IMG/VR virus record: IMGVR_UViG_3300047585_000086
Coordinates: 1 to 24,212 of that record
Strand: one strand, 5' to 3'
DNA from: a virus
DNA: 24,212 bases
The notes below the pieces were generated by a model. The model worked only from the letters and a program-made list of their open reading frames with translations. It did no database searches and was not told the origin of the DNA. Both the position numbers and the translations under genes were made by a program. Shown piece after piece: positions 3,731 through 19,781 of the stretch (the first letter of the stretch is position 1; each line of letters starts with the position of its first letter).

Positions 3731-5941
3731 ATGCCATCATTTCAAGGTTTGACACAACAAAAATCTGAAGGCGAAGCAGGCGGAATAGGTGAGTTCTTAA
3801 GGGGACCAGAAAGCAAAGCATTAACCCCGCAACAAGTTAATAGTAAAGCTAAAGGATTTGACGAATTAGCCAATGTATTTGGGCAGATGTCGCGTGCTGG
3901 ATTTCAGCAAGCGGAGTCGATGGCAGAGGAGATTAGTACGGACGCATTATTACAAGCAAATAGTGCGTTAGACGATGTTTTCACAAAAAGTAGACTAGAA
4001 ATAATGGCAGATTCTTCACCGGATGGAGTCGCATCAGCTGTTAAACGATATCATAGTCAGATTGATTCTATCACCAAAAATACACGTATCAATAAAGGTG
4101 ATCGCCGCAAATTAGATCAGATGCTCAATTCAAGAAAGAATAGTTTAGATTTACATGCTGGCGAATTAATTATAAAGAATCAGAAAGAAGCCAAAAGAAC
4201 TAACTTTTATACTTCATTGCCAGGAAATATGAATACAGTTGATAATTTTATCAATAAATATGAATTTGAAGAAGCCGCAGAATTAGGAGAAAAGATATAT
4301 AAAAATGCTGTTGACTTGTATTCAAACAAGATGATAACTGCCAATGAATTAATGGTTATTCAACGTGCAGCTGCTCAAGCACTCCATAAGTCTAAGAGGT
4401 TAATGGAGTCATTGGGTGAAGACCCTAATGCTTTAGATTATCAAAATTTAATTTCTTCACCATTTGGTATGGGAAGCGATGCCACTCAGCGCGTCGGACA
4501 ACCTCACGATATTAGTACAGGATATTTATATAATACCCACTTAACTGATGCTAGTACTACAGGTCAAGAAGCCGCCGCTATACAGACCGGCAAAATCAAT
4601 ATAATGGATTATTCAAATTTAGAGCCAAAACAACAAGAAAAAATATTCGCATTAAGTGAAGGTTCTATAGCTGCTGAGAACTATATTATATCTAACTCTA
4701 ATTGGAATGAAGTATTAGTTAAATATGATGATCTTAAAGATAGACCGTCGGAAACATTAACTATGCAGGAAAAAGGAATGAAAGGCCGACTTGAATACAT
4801 GATTCAACGTTTCAAATCTGGTAATTATAATGAGATAATTTCTGATACAGTTATGGGTGCAAATATCGAACAACAAAGACAGTTAGAGTTGACTGTAATT
4901 AACGATGGACAAACCTATAATACTTCCACACCAGAAGGTCAACAACAAGCATATTATGCGAACACACAAAGCTATAATAATTATATAAATAAAAAAATAG
5001 CTTTAGGTATAGCAATGCATCTTCCTGCAGAATGGATTCAACCTTTTGACCAACAATTTGCAAATACTATTAAAGCTTCTTTTAAACCTAATGGTGACTA
5101 TAATGCTACGATTGAGAATATACGCACACTGGCACCTGAGCAAAGAGTTTATGCGATCAATACAGTATCCAAACCAAATCAACAAGAAAGCTTAAGAACT
5201 GTTACACTTGCTCGTCAATCAAATTCAATAGAATTTTTACAAGATATGATTATTGCAAATCAAGAAGGTATAAATTTTGATGTATTAAAACTAAAAGATA
5301 CGCAATCTGACATGAAACTGAAAACCGCAATAACATCAGAACTGTCAGAAATATATGATTTTCAAATTAGGAATGGAAATTCAACGACCATGTTGAATAA
5401 AAATATAGGTTCTTATGGGGAAGGTCAAACTGAGCAAGGAGGACTTCAACGTATATCGGGTATGACAGAGGCAGCAGTAAATTATGTTAAATTTCAAGCA
5501 ATTAAGAATAATGATTTGGAAATGCGTAATGCTGATAAGTATATCAGAAATATGGTTAAAGAAATGAACATTGGGTATGACATTAAGAGTGGTTTAAACT
5601 ATTCATTTAATAATACAAATTTAGTTATGGAATTAAGCAATAGAGATGCTTCATATGTTGCGCAATTTGCAATTAAACACGCCAAGGAACGACTTAAAGA
5701 ACATACTTCAGAATCACAATTTGTAGATATATTAGACAGAAATCCTTTGTTTATGACAATAGATCAGTTCAATAATATAATCGTTACTGATACAAAAACT
5801 AAATCTATAATTTATACTATTCCTTTCAGTGCAAATTTTGTCGAAGCTGCATTACATGAACACGAGAAAGAAAAACAAGAATACAAAGAAAATTTTCCGT
5901 CTCCTTTTTCAGTTCCATTTAGAGCGGGAGGAATTTATTAA
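3731..5941 (+). CDS. Large internal virion protein (T7 gp15-like candidate)
   Basis: A 736-residue, predominantly alpha-helical protein rich in Gln, Asn, Lys and Glu, with no signal peptide or obvious enzymatic motif. T7 gp15 is 747 residues and occupies the same slot between gp14 and gp16, where it forms the periplasmic part of the ejection tube. Visible landmarks are a Gly-rich N-terminus (GEAGGIGEFLRGPES), long Ala/Glu/Lys helices between about residues 40 and 240, and a C-terminal tail FPSPFSVPFRAGGIY. The stop codon overlaps the next start (TAATG), and the next gene's Shine-Dalgarno GGGAGGA is encoded by the last Ala-Gly-Gly codons, so the two are translationally coupled. Much of this gene is strikingly AT-rich: 12 G+C in the 60 bases at 5221-5280. 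Identity rests on synteny and length. Confidence 0.62.
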   Translation: MPSFQGLTQQKSEGEAGGIGEFLRGPESKALTPQQVNSKAKGFDELANVFGQMSRAGFQQAESMAEEISTDALLQANSALDDVFTKSRLEIMADSSPDGVASAVKRYHSQIDSITKNTRINKGDRRKLDQMLNSRKNSLDLHAGELIIKNQKEAKRTNFYTSLPGNMNTVDNFINKYEFEEAAELGEKIYKNAVDLYSNKMITANELMVIQRAAAQALHKSKRLMESLGEDPNALDYQNLISSPFGMGSDATQRVGQPHDISTGYLYNTHLTDASTTGQEAAAIQTGKINIMDYSNLEPKQQEKIFALSEGSIAAENYIISNSNWNEVLVKYDDLKDRPSETLTMQEKGMKGRLEYMIQRFKSGNYNEIISDTVMGANIEQQRQLELTVINDGQTYNTSTPEGQQQAYYANTQSYNNYINKKIALGIAMHLPAEWIQPFDQQFANTIKASFKPNGDYNATIENIRTLAPEQRVYAINTVSKPNQQESLRTVTLARQSNSIEFLQDMIIANQEGINFDVLKLKDTQSDMKLKTAITSELSEIYDFQIRNGNSTTMLNKNIGSYGEGQTEQGGLQRISGMTEAAVNYVKFQAIKNNDLEMRNADKYIRNMVKEMNIGYDIKSGLNYSFNNTNLVMELSNRDASYVAQFAIKHAKERLKEHTSESQFVDILDRNPLFMTIDQFNNIIVTDTKTKSIIYTIPFSANFVEAALHEHEKEKQEYKENFPSPFSVPFRAGGIY

Positions 5942-15887: not shown

Positions 15888-16319
15888 TTAAAATCCTTGT
15901 ATTTCATTGATTTGATTTTCAAAGCCATCATTGGCTTCCACCTTTTTAGGAACTATATAATCCTTAACAGAATTTTTTAGTTCGCCGTTTTTGTCTATTC
16001 GATGGATTAAATCAAATTCAAATTCTTTACCATCGCAGTCTTGCGGGTATAATTTACCTGAATTGTATTTATCCATCATTCCTGTGGCTTCACAGAAGTG
16101 CTTTAGTTTATAGAACATTTTTCCCTCAAACAAGAGAGCATCGAAGATCGTGCCCACTTTATTTGTTTCAATGTTCCGGGCGCGAATTTTTAAATTGAAG
16201 TAATCATTACCCGTGTTGGAATTTTTGTGGTCAGCTCGTGAAACTGTCCCATGGTATCTTCCTGGTGGTAATAGATTCATCTCTCTAATTTCCGAATCAG
16301 ACATTGGCTTGAAATCCAT
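15888..16319 (-). CDS. DUF669-like putative ssDNA-binding protein
   Basis: A 143-residue protein. The layout resembles the DUF669/phage SSB-like group: LLPPGRYHGTVSRADHKNSN, then GNDYFNLKIRARNIE, VGTIFDALLFEG, and FYKLKHFCEATGM, followed by GKEFEFDLIHRIDKNGELKN and VKDYIVPKK. Such proteins commonly sit beside RecT and YqaJ genes in phages and are thought to bind ssDNA in an OB-like fold. The ATG at 16319 lies inside the 3' end of the RecT gene (23-nt overlap) with GAGGAG upstream, so the genes are coupled. The family call is by pattern only. Confidence 0.68.
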   Translation of the reverse strand: MDFKPMSDSEIREMNLLPPGRYHGTVSRADHKNSNTGNDYFNLKIRARNIETNKVGTIFDALLFEGKMFYKLKHFCEATGMMDKYNSGKLYPQDCDGKEFEFDLIHRIDKNGELKNSVKDYIVPKKVEANDGFENQINEIQGF

Positions 16320-16959
16320 TTTGATTCTCCTCAGTTGTGAAAATTGCCTCTTCAGCTAATCCTAATGATTCTTTAAGTCCTTGTATACCTTTAGTTTTAG
16401 TGACATGCATTTTTTTAATGGGCGTGATATCTCTGGCTTCATCTTCTGCCAATAGACCGAACAATGCATCGGGAAACAGATCTCTAGCGCAGAAAGTTCT
16501 TGCTCGATGCTGCAACATTCTTAATGGGTATTCCATCCATGGACCAGGTTTTGTTGATAATCCCGCTCTGACAGCGTCATGATACGAAAAACTTCTTGTC
16601 TGTTCTGTTTGACCTTTACGCCACATTGTGCAATAAGCCGTTGAAAATCCTTTTTCACCGGTTTCGATCCATTCCTTCATATCTTGAAAGTCTTTGTGTT
16701 TTTTGACTAGCGCCAACAGACCATCTCCATAAATTATCGGCTTGCCATTGATACAGCCAATCGTTCTCAATGCTTGCATAGGCTGCAATCCAACTTCATA
16801 GCCAGTTTGAATGATGATTACAACATCGCCTGCCCGTCCTCGTAAAGAGTCTGGGCAGATACTCGAATTTGCAACCATAGAGCCTAATCTTTCTAACTCT
16901 TCAAAACTTTTAGGAGCTAGATTAAATGGCTTGTTTTCATAGACTTGCATATCTCTCAT
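16297..16959 (-). CDS. recT: RecT-family single-strand annealing protein
   Basis: A 220-residue recombinase that anneals complementary single strands after exonuclease resection. Family signatures: AGDVVIIIQTGYEVGLQPMQ followed by ALRTIGCINGKPIIYGDGLLAL (about residues 42-82), then SYHDAVRAGL, GPWMEYPLRMLQHRARTF, CARDLFPDALFGLLAEDEARD (about 123-175). This is the usual RecT core, with W-x-x-Y-P-x-x-M-L-x-x-R-A near the end. The C-terminal 45 residues are variable. The ATG overlaps the YqaJ stop (ATGA), with AAGGAAA upstream. It should work with the adjacent exonuclease, like lambda Exo/Beta. Confidence 0.88.
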   Translation of the reverse strand: MRDMQVYENKPFNLAPKSFEELERLGSMVANSSICPDSLRGRAGDVVIIIQTGYEVGLQPMQALRTIGCINGKPIIYGDGLLALVKKHKDFQDMKEWIETGEKGFSTAYCTMWRKGQTEQTRSFSYHDAVRAGLSTKPGPWMEYPLRMLQHRARTFCARDLFPDALFGLLAEDEARDITPIKKMHVTKTKGIQGLKESLGLAEEAIFTTEENQNGFQANV

Positions 16960-17798
16960 GATTGATTTCCTTTCATTCGTAACGACCTTACGCCAATCTT
17001 ATTTGCAATAAATGACGCCACAATATCGTCACCTTCTTTAATGCCGTCACTGGAACCGATGAGTTTAATTAACTCAAATTCGTTTTTTTCCTTGTAACCC
17101 GTAGTGGTCTTAATATGCTCTTTATTTAATCTAAGCGCTTCCATCAGTAGAGCTATATGCGGCGTTTTTTCTATATAATGCCCTTCGTTGACCGGGTAAA
17201 TGAGCTTCAAATCACCTCGCGTTGTCGGCTCTGGAGAAATATCTCTTTTGATATGATAGTTCCAAAAGTGATTGACCTTCTCAACAATCGTTTTGATAAG
17301 ATCTTCGTCACGCTTAAACGGATAGATTCTTAAATCTGTCGTACCTCGAAAAACAATCAAATCCGCTTCATTCCAACCGGTTACAGCAAGTTGCTGTTGA
17401 ACTTGTGCGATATAATGCAATGGAACCTCATCTGTCCCCTCATTACCCCACTCTTTGGAAAAAGGGTTAGCCGTTTTAATTTCGACTGCCTTTTGCTCTC
17501 CTAGAATCTTTCTATCTAAATGACAGATGATATGGGGAAAGTCTTTATGCTTTAGTGCGCGATTGACTCTAGCCACTTTAGTGCCTGTTAATTGCGCATA
17601 ACGCTTCGCTATGACGGGTTCCAACAAGTTGCCCATAATGACGGCGGCATTCTGCGATAAGTCGTCTGGCTCTTTTCTGCCTGTCTTTTCAAGCCAAAGT
17701 TCGTAGGGTGTTTTGTAAGGATTTATCCCTAAAACAATACTACATTCACTGGCGCCGATGCCGTCTTTTAGCTCGTTAGATTGTGAAAGGTTTAACAT
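16956..17798 (-). CDS. YqaJ-type viral recombinase (5'-3' exonuclease)
   Basis: A 280-residue nuclease of the lambda Exo/YqaJ family (PD-(D/E)XK fold). It resects double-strand ends to give tails for RecT. Motifs: IGASECSIVLGINPYKTPYE (14-33, DNA-end/phosphate binding Ser/Glu segment), MGNLLEP with Glu60, ICHLDRK with Asp95, VEIKTA with Glu106 and Lys108, and IAQVQQQLAVTGW with the Gln cluster 132-136. Spacing agrees with lambda Exo Glu85, Asp119, Glu129, Lys131 and Gln157. GGGGGA precedes the ATG by a few bases inside the upstream gene (23-nt overlap). All catalytic positions appear intact. Confidence 0.92.
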   Translation of the reverse strand: MLNLSQSNELKDGIGASECSIVLGINPYKTPYELWLEKTGRKEPDDLSQNAAVIMGNLLEPVIAKRYAQLTGTKVARVNRALKHKDFPHIICHLDRKILGEQKAVEIKTANPFSKEWGNEGTDEVPLHYIAQVQQQLAVTGWNEADLIVFRGTTDLRIYPFKRDEDLIKTIVEKVNHFWNYHIKRDISPEPTTRGDLKLIYPVNEGHYIEKTPHIALLMEALRLNKEHIKTTTGYKEKNEFELIKLIGSSDGIKEGDDIVASFIANKIGVRSLRMKGNQS

Positions 17799-18565: not shown

Positions 18566-18611
18566 TTATCCACAGATTTTTGATGGAGTTATCCACTGAA
18601 TTTGTGGATAT
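18566..18611. other. Cluster of three DnaA boxes upstream of the initiator gene
   Basis: TTATCCACA at 18566-18574 is a perfect consensus DnaA box; TTATCCACT at 18589-18597 and the reverse-strand ATATCCACA at 18603-18611 each differ by one base. Three boxes in 46 bp are far above chance. They may recruit host DnaA to the replication region or tie expression of the initiator gene to DnaA. Confidence 0.8.
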
Positions 18612-18672: not shown

Positions 18673-18703
18673 TTCCGGGCGGTGAGTTTAGCTCCGCCCG
18701 GAA
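18673..18703 (+). other. GC-rich hairpin (terminator-like, no U-tract)
   Basis: A perfect 10-bp stem (TTCCGGGCGG, 18673-18682, with CCGCCCGGAA, 18694-18703) has an 11-nt loop and stands out in an AT-rich gap. It is not followed by a T-run (TAGGAGTATT), so it is a poor intrinsic terminator. It could be an RNA processing site, a pause or attenuation structure in the initiator mRNA leader, or a structural element of the replication region. Confidence 0.6.
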
Positions 18704-18826: not shown

Positions 18827-19432
18827 ATGCCAAACAGTAATCACGTCGTAGATAGATTTTTAAGAAAAGAAGCCATAGAAAAAAAGTTTAAACTAACCCA
18901 CTGTGAATATATTGCACTTCGAACCCTCGCTAGCTATTGCGGACCACGCGATCATTATATCGTAGATAAAACAACCTTTGCACGCGACGCATTTATGTCG
19001 CGCAGAAATCTCTACTACACATTGAAATCCTTGCGCGCAAAAGGTCTCATCAGTTACGACGAAAACGTAAGTACCAGAAATCTATACAGATTAGAGATTA
19101 GATTGATGCAATTTTATGCTGAAAAAAAGTTATCCACAGGGGGTGCAACCAATTCACAACCTCCAGAACCGTGTGCAATGGTTGCACACTCATGTGCAAT
19201 GGTTGCACAGAAACCAATTGAAAGTGTGCAACCATTGCACCCATATACTAAAACTCTTAAACTAAAAGAAACTAAAAGAGATTTGGCTTCGCCGCCCCCT
19301 GTGGATAACTTTAAAGATGAGGAAGTTGAAGAACAAAGATTGAACGGTGCTTTCCCCCTGCAAATGCATTTAGACAAACTCAAAGGTCACATCACGTTCG
19401 CCACCATAAAAGAGAGTAATGATGCCAACTGA
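18827..19432 (+). CDS. Replication initiator with internal origin (lambda O-like organisation)
   Basis: A 201-residue protein. Residues 1-95 look like a winged-helix DNA-binding domain: NHVVDRFLRKEAIEKKFKLT, then YIALRTLASYCG, VDKTTFARDAFMSRRNLYYT, LKSLRAKGLISYDE, and NLYRLEI. The wing and recognition-helix order is like phage and plasmid initiators. Residues about 105-138 are encoded by four iterons, which give the repeated peptide CAMVAHSCAMVAQ. The C-terminus is charged and probably flexible, as expected for a segment that contacts a helicase loader. A near-consensus AAGGAGG at 18816-18822 precedes the ATG by 4 nt, implying strong translation. No helicase loader or helicase gene is visible. 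The next gene overlaps its 3' end. Function is inferred from fold pattern plus internal origin. Confidence 0.72.
   Translation: MPNSNHVVDRFLRKEAIEKKFKLTHCEYIALRTLASYCGPRDHYIVDKTTFARDAFMSRRNLYYTLKSLRAKGLISYDENVSTRNLYRLEIRLMQFYAEKKLSTGGATNSQPPEPCAMVAHSCAMVAQKPIESVQPLHPYTKTLKLKETKRDLASPPPVDNFKDEEVEEQRLNGAFPLQMHLDKLKGHITFATIKESNDAN
19130..19308. other. Putative replication origin: four iterons flanked by DnaA boxes
   Basis: Inside the initiator gene lie four copies of a 15-bp near-palindrome, GTGCAA-NNN-TTGCAC: 19143-19157 (two mismatches), 19173-19187, 19194-19208 and 19226-19240. The two inner copies read TGG in the centre; the outer two read CCA, so the array is symmetric. A perfect DnaA box TTATCCACA (19130-19138) lies on the left and an inverted perfect one (19300-19308) on the right. 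Between iteron 4 and the right box is an A-rich purine stretch with repeated CTAAAA words (about 19247-19281), a candidate unwinding element. The arrangement parallels lambda ori, where iterons and an AT-rich block lie within gene O. Confidence 0.8.
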
Positions 19433-19781
19433 GGCAGAGGAACAAGAATGGTTGTTTGAATGGCTGAGGCTCAAAGGCATTCCTTCGTACCACGTCCCCA
19501 ACGAAAGTCTGCGCTCAGACGCCTACCGCGCTATTCTTTACCGTAGGGGCTTAGAACCGGGGATCGCTGATATCTGTATACCCCGGGCAAATAAACGTCA
19601 CCACGGGCTTTATATTGAGCTTAAGCGGGTAAAGGGAGGTAGACTTTCCCCGGCACAAGCGGAATGGGGACGGATTTTAATCGCAGAAGGGTATTATTGG
19701 GCTGTTTGCAAGGGCTGGCTGGCCGCCTCGGTATTGGTTGAACAGTACTTGTCAAATTCTGTAGATTTGCCTATGCTCTAG
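19419..19781 (+). CDS. VRR-NUC domain nuclease
   Basis: A 120-residue stand-alone VRR-NUC protein (PD-(D/E)XK superfamily; phage forms act as structure-specific or nicking nucleases in replication and recombination). Motifs: TEAEEQEWLFEWLRLKG (helix with the first acidic residue), HVPNES (25-30), EPGIADICIP with Asp51, LYIELKRV with Glu67 and Lys69, LSPAQAEW with Gln80, then EGYYWAVCKGW. Length matches phage members. It overlaps the initiator gene by 14 nt. ATG 19419 is immediately followed by a second ATG at 19422, either of which could start. Base use is clearly richer in G+C than the virion genes: 34 of 60 bases at 19501-19560. Confidence 0.9.
   Translation: MMPTEAEEQEWLFEWLRLKGIPSYHVPNESLRSDAYRAILYRRGLEPGIADICIPRANKRHHGLYIELKRVKGGRLSPAQAEWGRILIAEGYYWAVCKGWLAASVLVEQYLSNSVDLPML

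Follow-up and report, generated by a model that had tools for sequence, protein, structure and literature searches.

The gene at positions 18,827 to 19,432 (transcribed rightwards) of the window, by which we mean the whole 24,212-nucleotide stretch of viral DNA analysed here, very probably contains a lambda-like replication origin embedded in its own coding sequence, where host DnaA is a probable helper. A preliminary description of this DNA had proposed a lambda-like origin within an initiator gene, and comparison with other phages bears this out for the iterons, the A-rich block and the winged helix, but not for kinship in the narrow sense, no lambda P having been found and the gene product not being a close relative of lambda O. 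The iterons, the A-rich block and both flanking DnaA boxes all lie, as described, within this single open reading frame, which codes for a predicted initiator of 201 amino acids with a predicted winged helix.

The gene contains the four reported GTGCAA-N3-TTGCAC iterons, three of them exact and one with two mismatches: the degenerate iteron 1 (GTGCAACCAATTCAC, 19143–19157), iterons 2 and 3 (both GTGCAATGGTTGCAC, 19173–19187 and 19194–19208) and iteron 4 (GTGCAACCATTGCAC, 19226–19240), none being assigned to a strand. Their centres run CCA, TGG, TGG, CCA, in the order given previously, and an overlooked feature is that two codon frames are used, iteron 4 lying in a different frame from iterons 1–3. 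Among 20,000 versions of the gene recoded synonymously, none had as many as three palindromes and 146 had at least two DnaA boxes; these elements are not there by chance.

The A-rich repeat block 3' of the last iteron is also present as described (19241–19290, plus strand; A 0.46 and AT 0.72 over 50 nt) and is the probable unwinding element, such an AT-rich element adjoining the last iteron being characteristic of lambda-type embedded origins. It includes a tandem pair of AAACTAAAAG (19259–19268 and 19269–19278, plus strand) and has a 10-nt periodicity that none of 300 shuffles equalled. The same composition is seen in other initiators with this iteron: in 44 of 46, the 50 nt past the last iteron have a higher coding-strand A content than the remainder of the gene (mean excess 0.13, standard error 0.013), with the flank upstream of the iterons nearly neutral in A content. 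Tandem repeats of 10–14 nt are significant downstream of the iterons in 20 of these 46 genes, against 0 of 46 upstream controls, and the AAACTAAAAG pair is one case among them.

Two perfect DnaA boxes (TTATCCACA) bracket the iteron array in opposite orientations, at 19130–19138 (plus) and 19300–19308 (minus), in agreement with the preliminary description. Two further features had been missed. The bracketing boxes form the core of a perfect inverted repeat with 18-nt arms (left arm AAAGTTATCCACAGGGGG, 19126–19143, plus; right arm, 19295–19312, minus), the arms of which are absent from relatives that retain the iterons, and a second cluster of boxes lies just 5' of the gene, with one perfect box (TTATCCACA, 18566–18574, plus) and two with a single mismatch (TTATCCACT, 18589–18597, plus; ATATCCACA, 18603–18611, minus). 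The window has three perfect boxes where a first-order Markov model expects 0.17, and all three lie within 743 bp together with the two one-mismatch boxes, as would be seen at a DnaA-dependent origin. In the leader 5' of the initiator gene there is also a perfect inverted repeat (TTCCGGGCGG...CCGCCCGGAA, 18673–18703) that resembles a terminator or attenuator hairpin.

The AlphaFold2 model of the predicted initiator has a confident winged helix at about residues 11–104 (18857–19138, plus strand; pLDDT about 80–97 over most of it), a low-confidence stretch to about residue 178, and a C-terminal helix at residues 179–194, predicting a layout of winged-helix DNA-binding domain, disordered linker and short C-terminal helix. 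The protein has no Pfam match above the cut-off, RepA_N (PF06970) included; HTH_36 (PF13730), which relatives do match, is not among its Pfam matches at E values up to 0.1, and direct protein searches of viral contigs, phages and plasmids returned no close relative. A profile built from iteron-bearing initiators with the window protein left out retrieves it at E=4e-9, and there is a weak O-like match in PHROG (phrog_678, E=0.0021). By fold, the closest replication proteins are RepA_N N-domains (Z 9.2–9.3; 4pql_B at 9.3 and 4pt7_B at 9.2, with 5kbj_H at 8.4) and the DnaD N-domain (Z 8.0–8.4), and a replication protein O is among the matches to viral models; winged helices being a common fold, such a match alone proves little. 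We place the protein in a group defined in the present analysis, the HTH_36-like initiators with GTGCAA iterons, as its winged helix fits the profile of that group and the GTGCAA-N3-TTGCAC copies lie directly behind it. As judged by sequence, its kinship is clear only with the O-like set that bears these iterons, and it is not a close relative of O.

The iteron, which the preliminary description did not recognise, is not private to this phage and recurs in many others, including JBD68. A pattern scan of IMG/VR found GTGCAA-N3-TTGCAC at 43 loci compared with 2 for the reversed pattern, and most of the loci found lie in O-like initiator genes with HTH_36 domains. Seventy-nine viral loci have at least two exact copies, and in 65 of them a matching winged-helix open reading frame covers the palindromes. 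Removal of near-duplicates left 51 initiators, 48 of which have every exact iteron immediately C-terminal to the winged helix; the loci were chosen for having the iteron, and these counts describe where it is placed and not how frequent it is. It had been suggested that iterons might persist in relatives despite codon drift, and they are indeed kept across the 51 initiators while reading frames change. More than one frame is used in 37 of 47 genes with at least two copies, and the same palindrome DNA is read as VQPLH at one site and as AMVAH at another; it is therefore the DNA that is conserved and not the peptide, which points to selection on the iteron sequence. The centre triplet is not the same from phage to phage, but the copies of any one phage mostly have it in common, directly or inverted.

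Among named phages, JBD68 and vB_Pae_U2 of Pseudomonas aeruginosa have two exact copies each, in a gene annotated as coding for a hypothetical or replication initiation protein. The O-like initiators of LESphi3, PseuP_222, PhluffyCoco and Pavtok embed repeats of other sequence, making GTGCAA just one of many specificities. Nor is the iteron a universal mark of HTH_36 proteins: in two less biased samples it was found in 0 of 30 from Clostridia and in 1 of 22 from gammaproteobacteria. A palindrome scan of GTDB does not in itself reveal initiators, with a winged-helix open reading frame over the sites in just 15 of 80 loci, and many of the others are promoters of HTH and nucleotidyltransferase genes. 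In Lachnospiraceae (e.g. L144, L170 and L192) paired GTGCAA-N3-TTGCAC sites lie directly 5' of HTH and MNT-like nucleotidyltransferase genes, where the palindrome apparently serves as an operator. Iteron spacings cluster at 22–23 nt and no period near 10.5 stands out, giving no sign of helical phasing. The palindrome 15-mers were found in no paper, in a search that is thin on subscription journals, such that an earlier description is possible; 9-mer matches were unrelated.

The genes adjoining the relatives' initiators are largely those of replication. DnaB genes adjoin them in L043 and L101 (with weaker matches in L077, L084 and L089), genes for AAA+ DnaC/IstB-like loaders in L079 and L127, and a weakly G39P-like protein is encoded beside the initiator in L030; in vB_Pae_U2, which is JBD68-like, the initiator is followed by an annotated DnaC-like loader and DnaB. 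In three relatives the neighbor codes for DnaA domain IV (PF08299, E values 1e-17 to 5e-19), the gene overlapping or abutting the initiator stop (L014, 5696–6235; L020, 8955–9482; L051, 2126–2665). No DnaA ATPase domain was reported for these three proteins, and they look like phage-borne DnaA-box binders beside a GTGCAA-type origin. One relative has a plasmid-replicon look, with two adjacent winged-helix open reading frames, the second with GTGCAA iterons, and then a ParA gene (L199, 5610–7832). In the window the next gene is a VRR-NUC nuclease (19419–19781, plus strand; PF08774, E=2.2e-7); a similar gene that appeared likely by eye 3' of the L070 iterons had no Pfam match. Genes for a RecT-like annealing protein and a YqaJ exonuclease lie on the opposite strand (16297–17798), a recombination module also seen in sister phage G008.

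The sister phages, which share the tail module of the window, lack the iteron. In G008, locus L216 is syntenic with the window (initiator, VRR-NUC with PF08774 at E=6.6e-8, lysozyme), and its O-like initiator has a palindrome of its own, CTAGGCTC-N5-GAGCCTAG. Copies 1 and 2 of the embedded iteron set of L216 (CTAGGCTCACTATGAGCCTAG, 3949–4040) have a perfect DnaA box between them. G004 codes for a plasmid Rep_3 initiator (L214, 5559–6593; PF01051, E=4.5e-25) with 21–22-nt iterons and an adjacent DnaA box, which suggests a phage-plasmid. There is also a perfect box in the stretch past a small winged-helix open reading frame in L215, and one inside a structural gene in L213 that is probably irrelevant. 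In G010 three TTGGACTCACAGTCCAA-like palindromes come after a short winged-helix open reading frame and lie outside it, with no DnaA box (L117, 8601–10300), possibly an origin of a third type. DnaA boxes thus recur beside sister-phage initiators although these initiators differ from that of the window.

In the iteron family the picture is different. A DnaA box near an iteron is no commoner than a reversed-box control in IMG/VR (6 versus 11 loci), which rules out the box as a general partner and means that DnaA boxes do not belong to the iteron family. TTWTNCACA is just about twice background around the relatives' initiators, and a search with a DnaA box on the far side of the iterons found L070 alone. 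Direct participation of DnaA is plausible as a feature of the lineage and not of the iteron family, and we put the chances of a DnaA role in this origin at about even.

It is possible, if somewhat doubtful, that the origin is embedded as proposed but that the boxes are regulatory, acting in DnaA-controlled transcription or titration, or inert, with the initiator alone recruiting the host helicase. The missing enrichment in the iteron family fits this, as do the three boxes 5' of the gene, which could affect its promoter, and DnaA in lambda works via transcription from pR (PMC7466680); the short C-terminal helix seen in the model could recruit a host factor. Against it, the array is framed precisely by the two perfect boxes at the core of the 18-nt inverted repeat, and boxes are also found at the initiator repeats of sister phages with different initiators.

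Three other explanations do without an embedded origin of this kind. That the palindromes are operators, and the winged-helix protein a transcription regulator of a promoter inside or behind the gene, is improbable: the fold is also common to MarR-type regulators, and in Lachnospiraceae chromosomes the palindrome pair stands outside any winged-helix gene, but in phages the palindromes follow the winged-helix domain, are accompanied by an A-rich repeat block and adjoin helicase, loader or DnaA-domain genes, and the best PHROG matches of the relatives are O-like replication families. It is very improbable that the repeats are a centromere of plasmid type to which a winged-helix partition protein binds; the fold matches do include TubR and the centromere-binding protein of pNOB8, and a ParA gene follows L199, yet MarR-like folds are common, neither ParA nor TubZ lies beside the window gene, and most relatives adjoin replication genes. 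We give equally little credence to the region acting as a structured single strand (a primase or single-strand initiation site) through the 18-nt stem and the palindromes. Its predicted single-stranded DNA fold is far more stable than those of shuffles (z -9.2), but palindromic iterons alone yield such stability and iteron-keeping relatives lack the 18-nt arms.

Of the well-described systems, the lambda origin has inverted-repeat iterons and an AT-rich element midway along the initiator gene, whose product has an N-terminal DNA-binding domain and an origin-encoded linker (PMC7466680). The window shares with lambda O and its Stx phage relatives the iterons and AT-rich element within the initiator gene and the linker encoded by the origin, and differs in iteron sequence, in the weakness of its O-like match and in having no detected lambda P gene. 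Because of the different iteron and the lack of a detected lambda P, we do not class it with the lambda O/P modules. It differs too in the boxes around its array; we know of no DnaA boxes bracketing the iterons of lambda ori. RepA_N plasmids have four Rep boxes central in the rep gene and a linker encoded by the origin, no DnaA boxes were detected in the staphylococcal plasmids, and the initiator of plasmid pPR9 has an HTH_36 N-domain (PF13730) resembling a phage replication protein (PMC5703833). The winged helix of the window is similar in fold to the N-domains of RepA_N initiators (pSK41, pTZ2162; 4pql, 4pt7), but the window protein has no RepA_N match in Pfam and the window has DnaA boxes. 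With the HTH_36 or O-like GTGCAA initiators such as JBD68 gp54 it has in common the palindrome behind a like domain and the A-rich block, whereas JBD68-type phages have their own loader and DnaB (as annotated in vB_Pae_U2) and no DnaA boxes there; in the window, boxes are present and no helicase was detected. Rep_3-type DnaA-assisted plasmid origins combine iterons with adjacent DnaA boxes, as does the window and exactly as in sister phage G004, but the window initiator is not of the Rep_3 type and its iterons are inside the gene.

From these elements we infer binding, melting and origin activity as follows. The N-terminal winged helix would bind the GTGCAA-N3-TTGCAC palindromes, probably as one dimer per site, and the bound array would strain and open the A-rich repeat block just downstream. 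The iterons, the A-rich block and the right-hand DnaA box would encode nothing but the disordered linker, leaving this stretch free to accommodate DNA signals. No match to DnaB, IstB/DnaC-like loaders, DnaA_C or lambda P (PF06992) was found in the window or in five sister records, which may be incomplete, and the helicase is therefore most likely supplied by the host; since the 24-kb record is of uncertain completeness, a helicase gene could sit outside the window. The bracketing boxes probably let host DnaA help to open the origin and load DnaB, and the lack of such matches suggests that the window phage and its sisters may borrow the host's helicase-loading machinery.

More broadly, and tentatively, the locus may be a hybrid origin, in which an O-like array and host DnaA boxes act jointly in opening the DNA and loading the host helicase. 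As part of the same tentative reading, this clade of phages would swap initiator-plus-iteron cassettes (at least two O-like types and a plasmid Rep_3) and keep the DnaA boxes, which suggests that using host DnaA is a trait of the phage clade or its host and not of the type of initiator; GTGCAA-N3-TTGCAC, likewise, would be a recurrent initiator specificity among very divergent phages of many bacterial phyla. Origins are seldom identified in metagenomic phages, and a short palindrome at a constant position behind a winged helix, together with an A-rich repeat block, offers an easy way of recognising the origins and initiators of uncultured phages, useful where phage proteins have no close database match.
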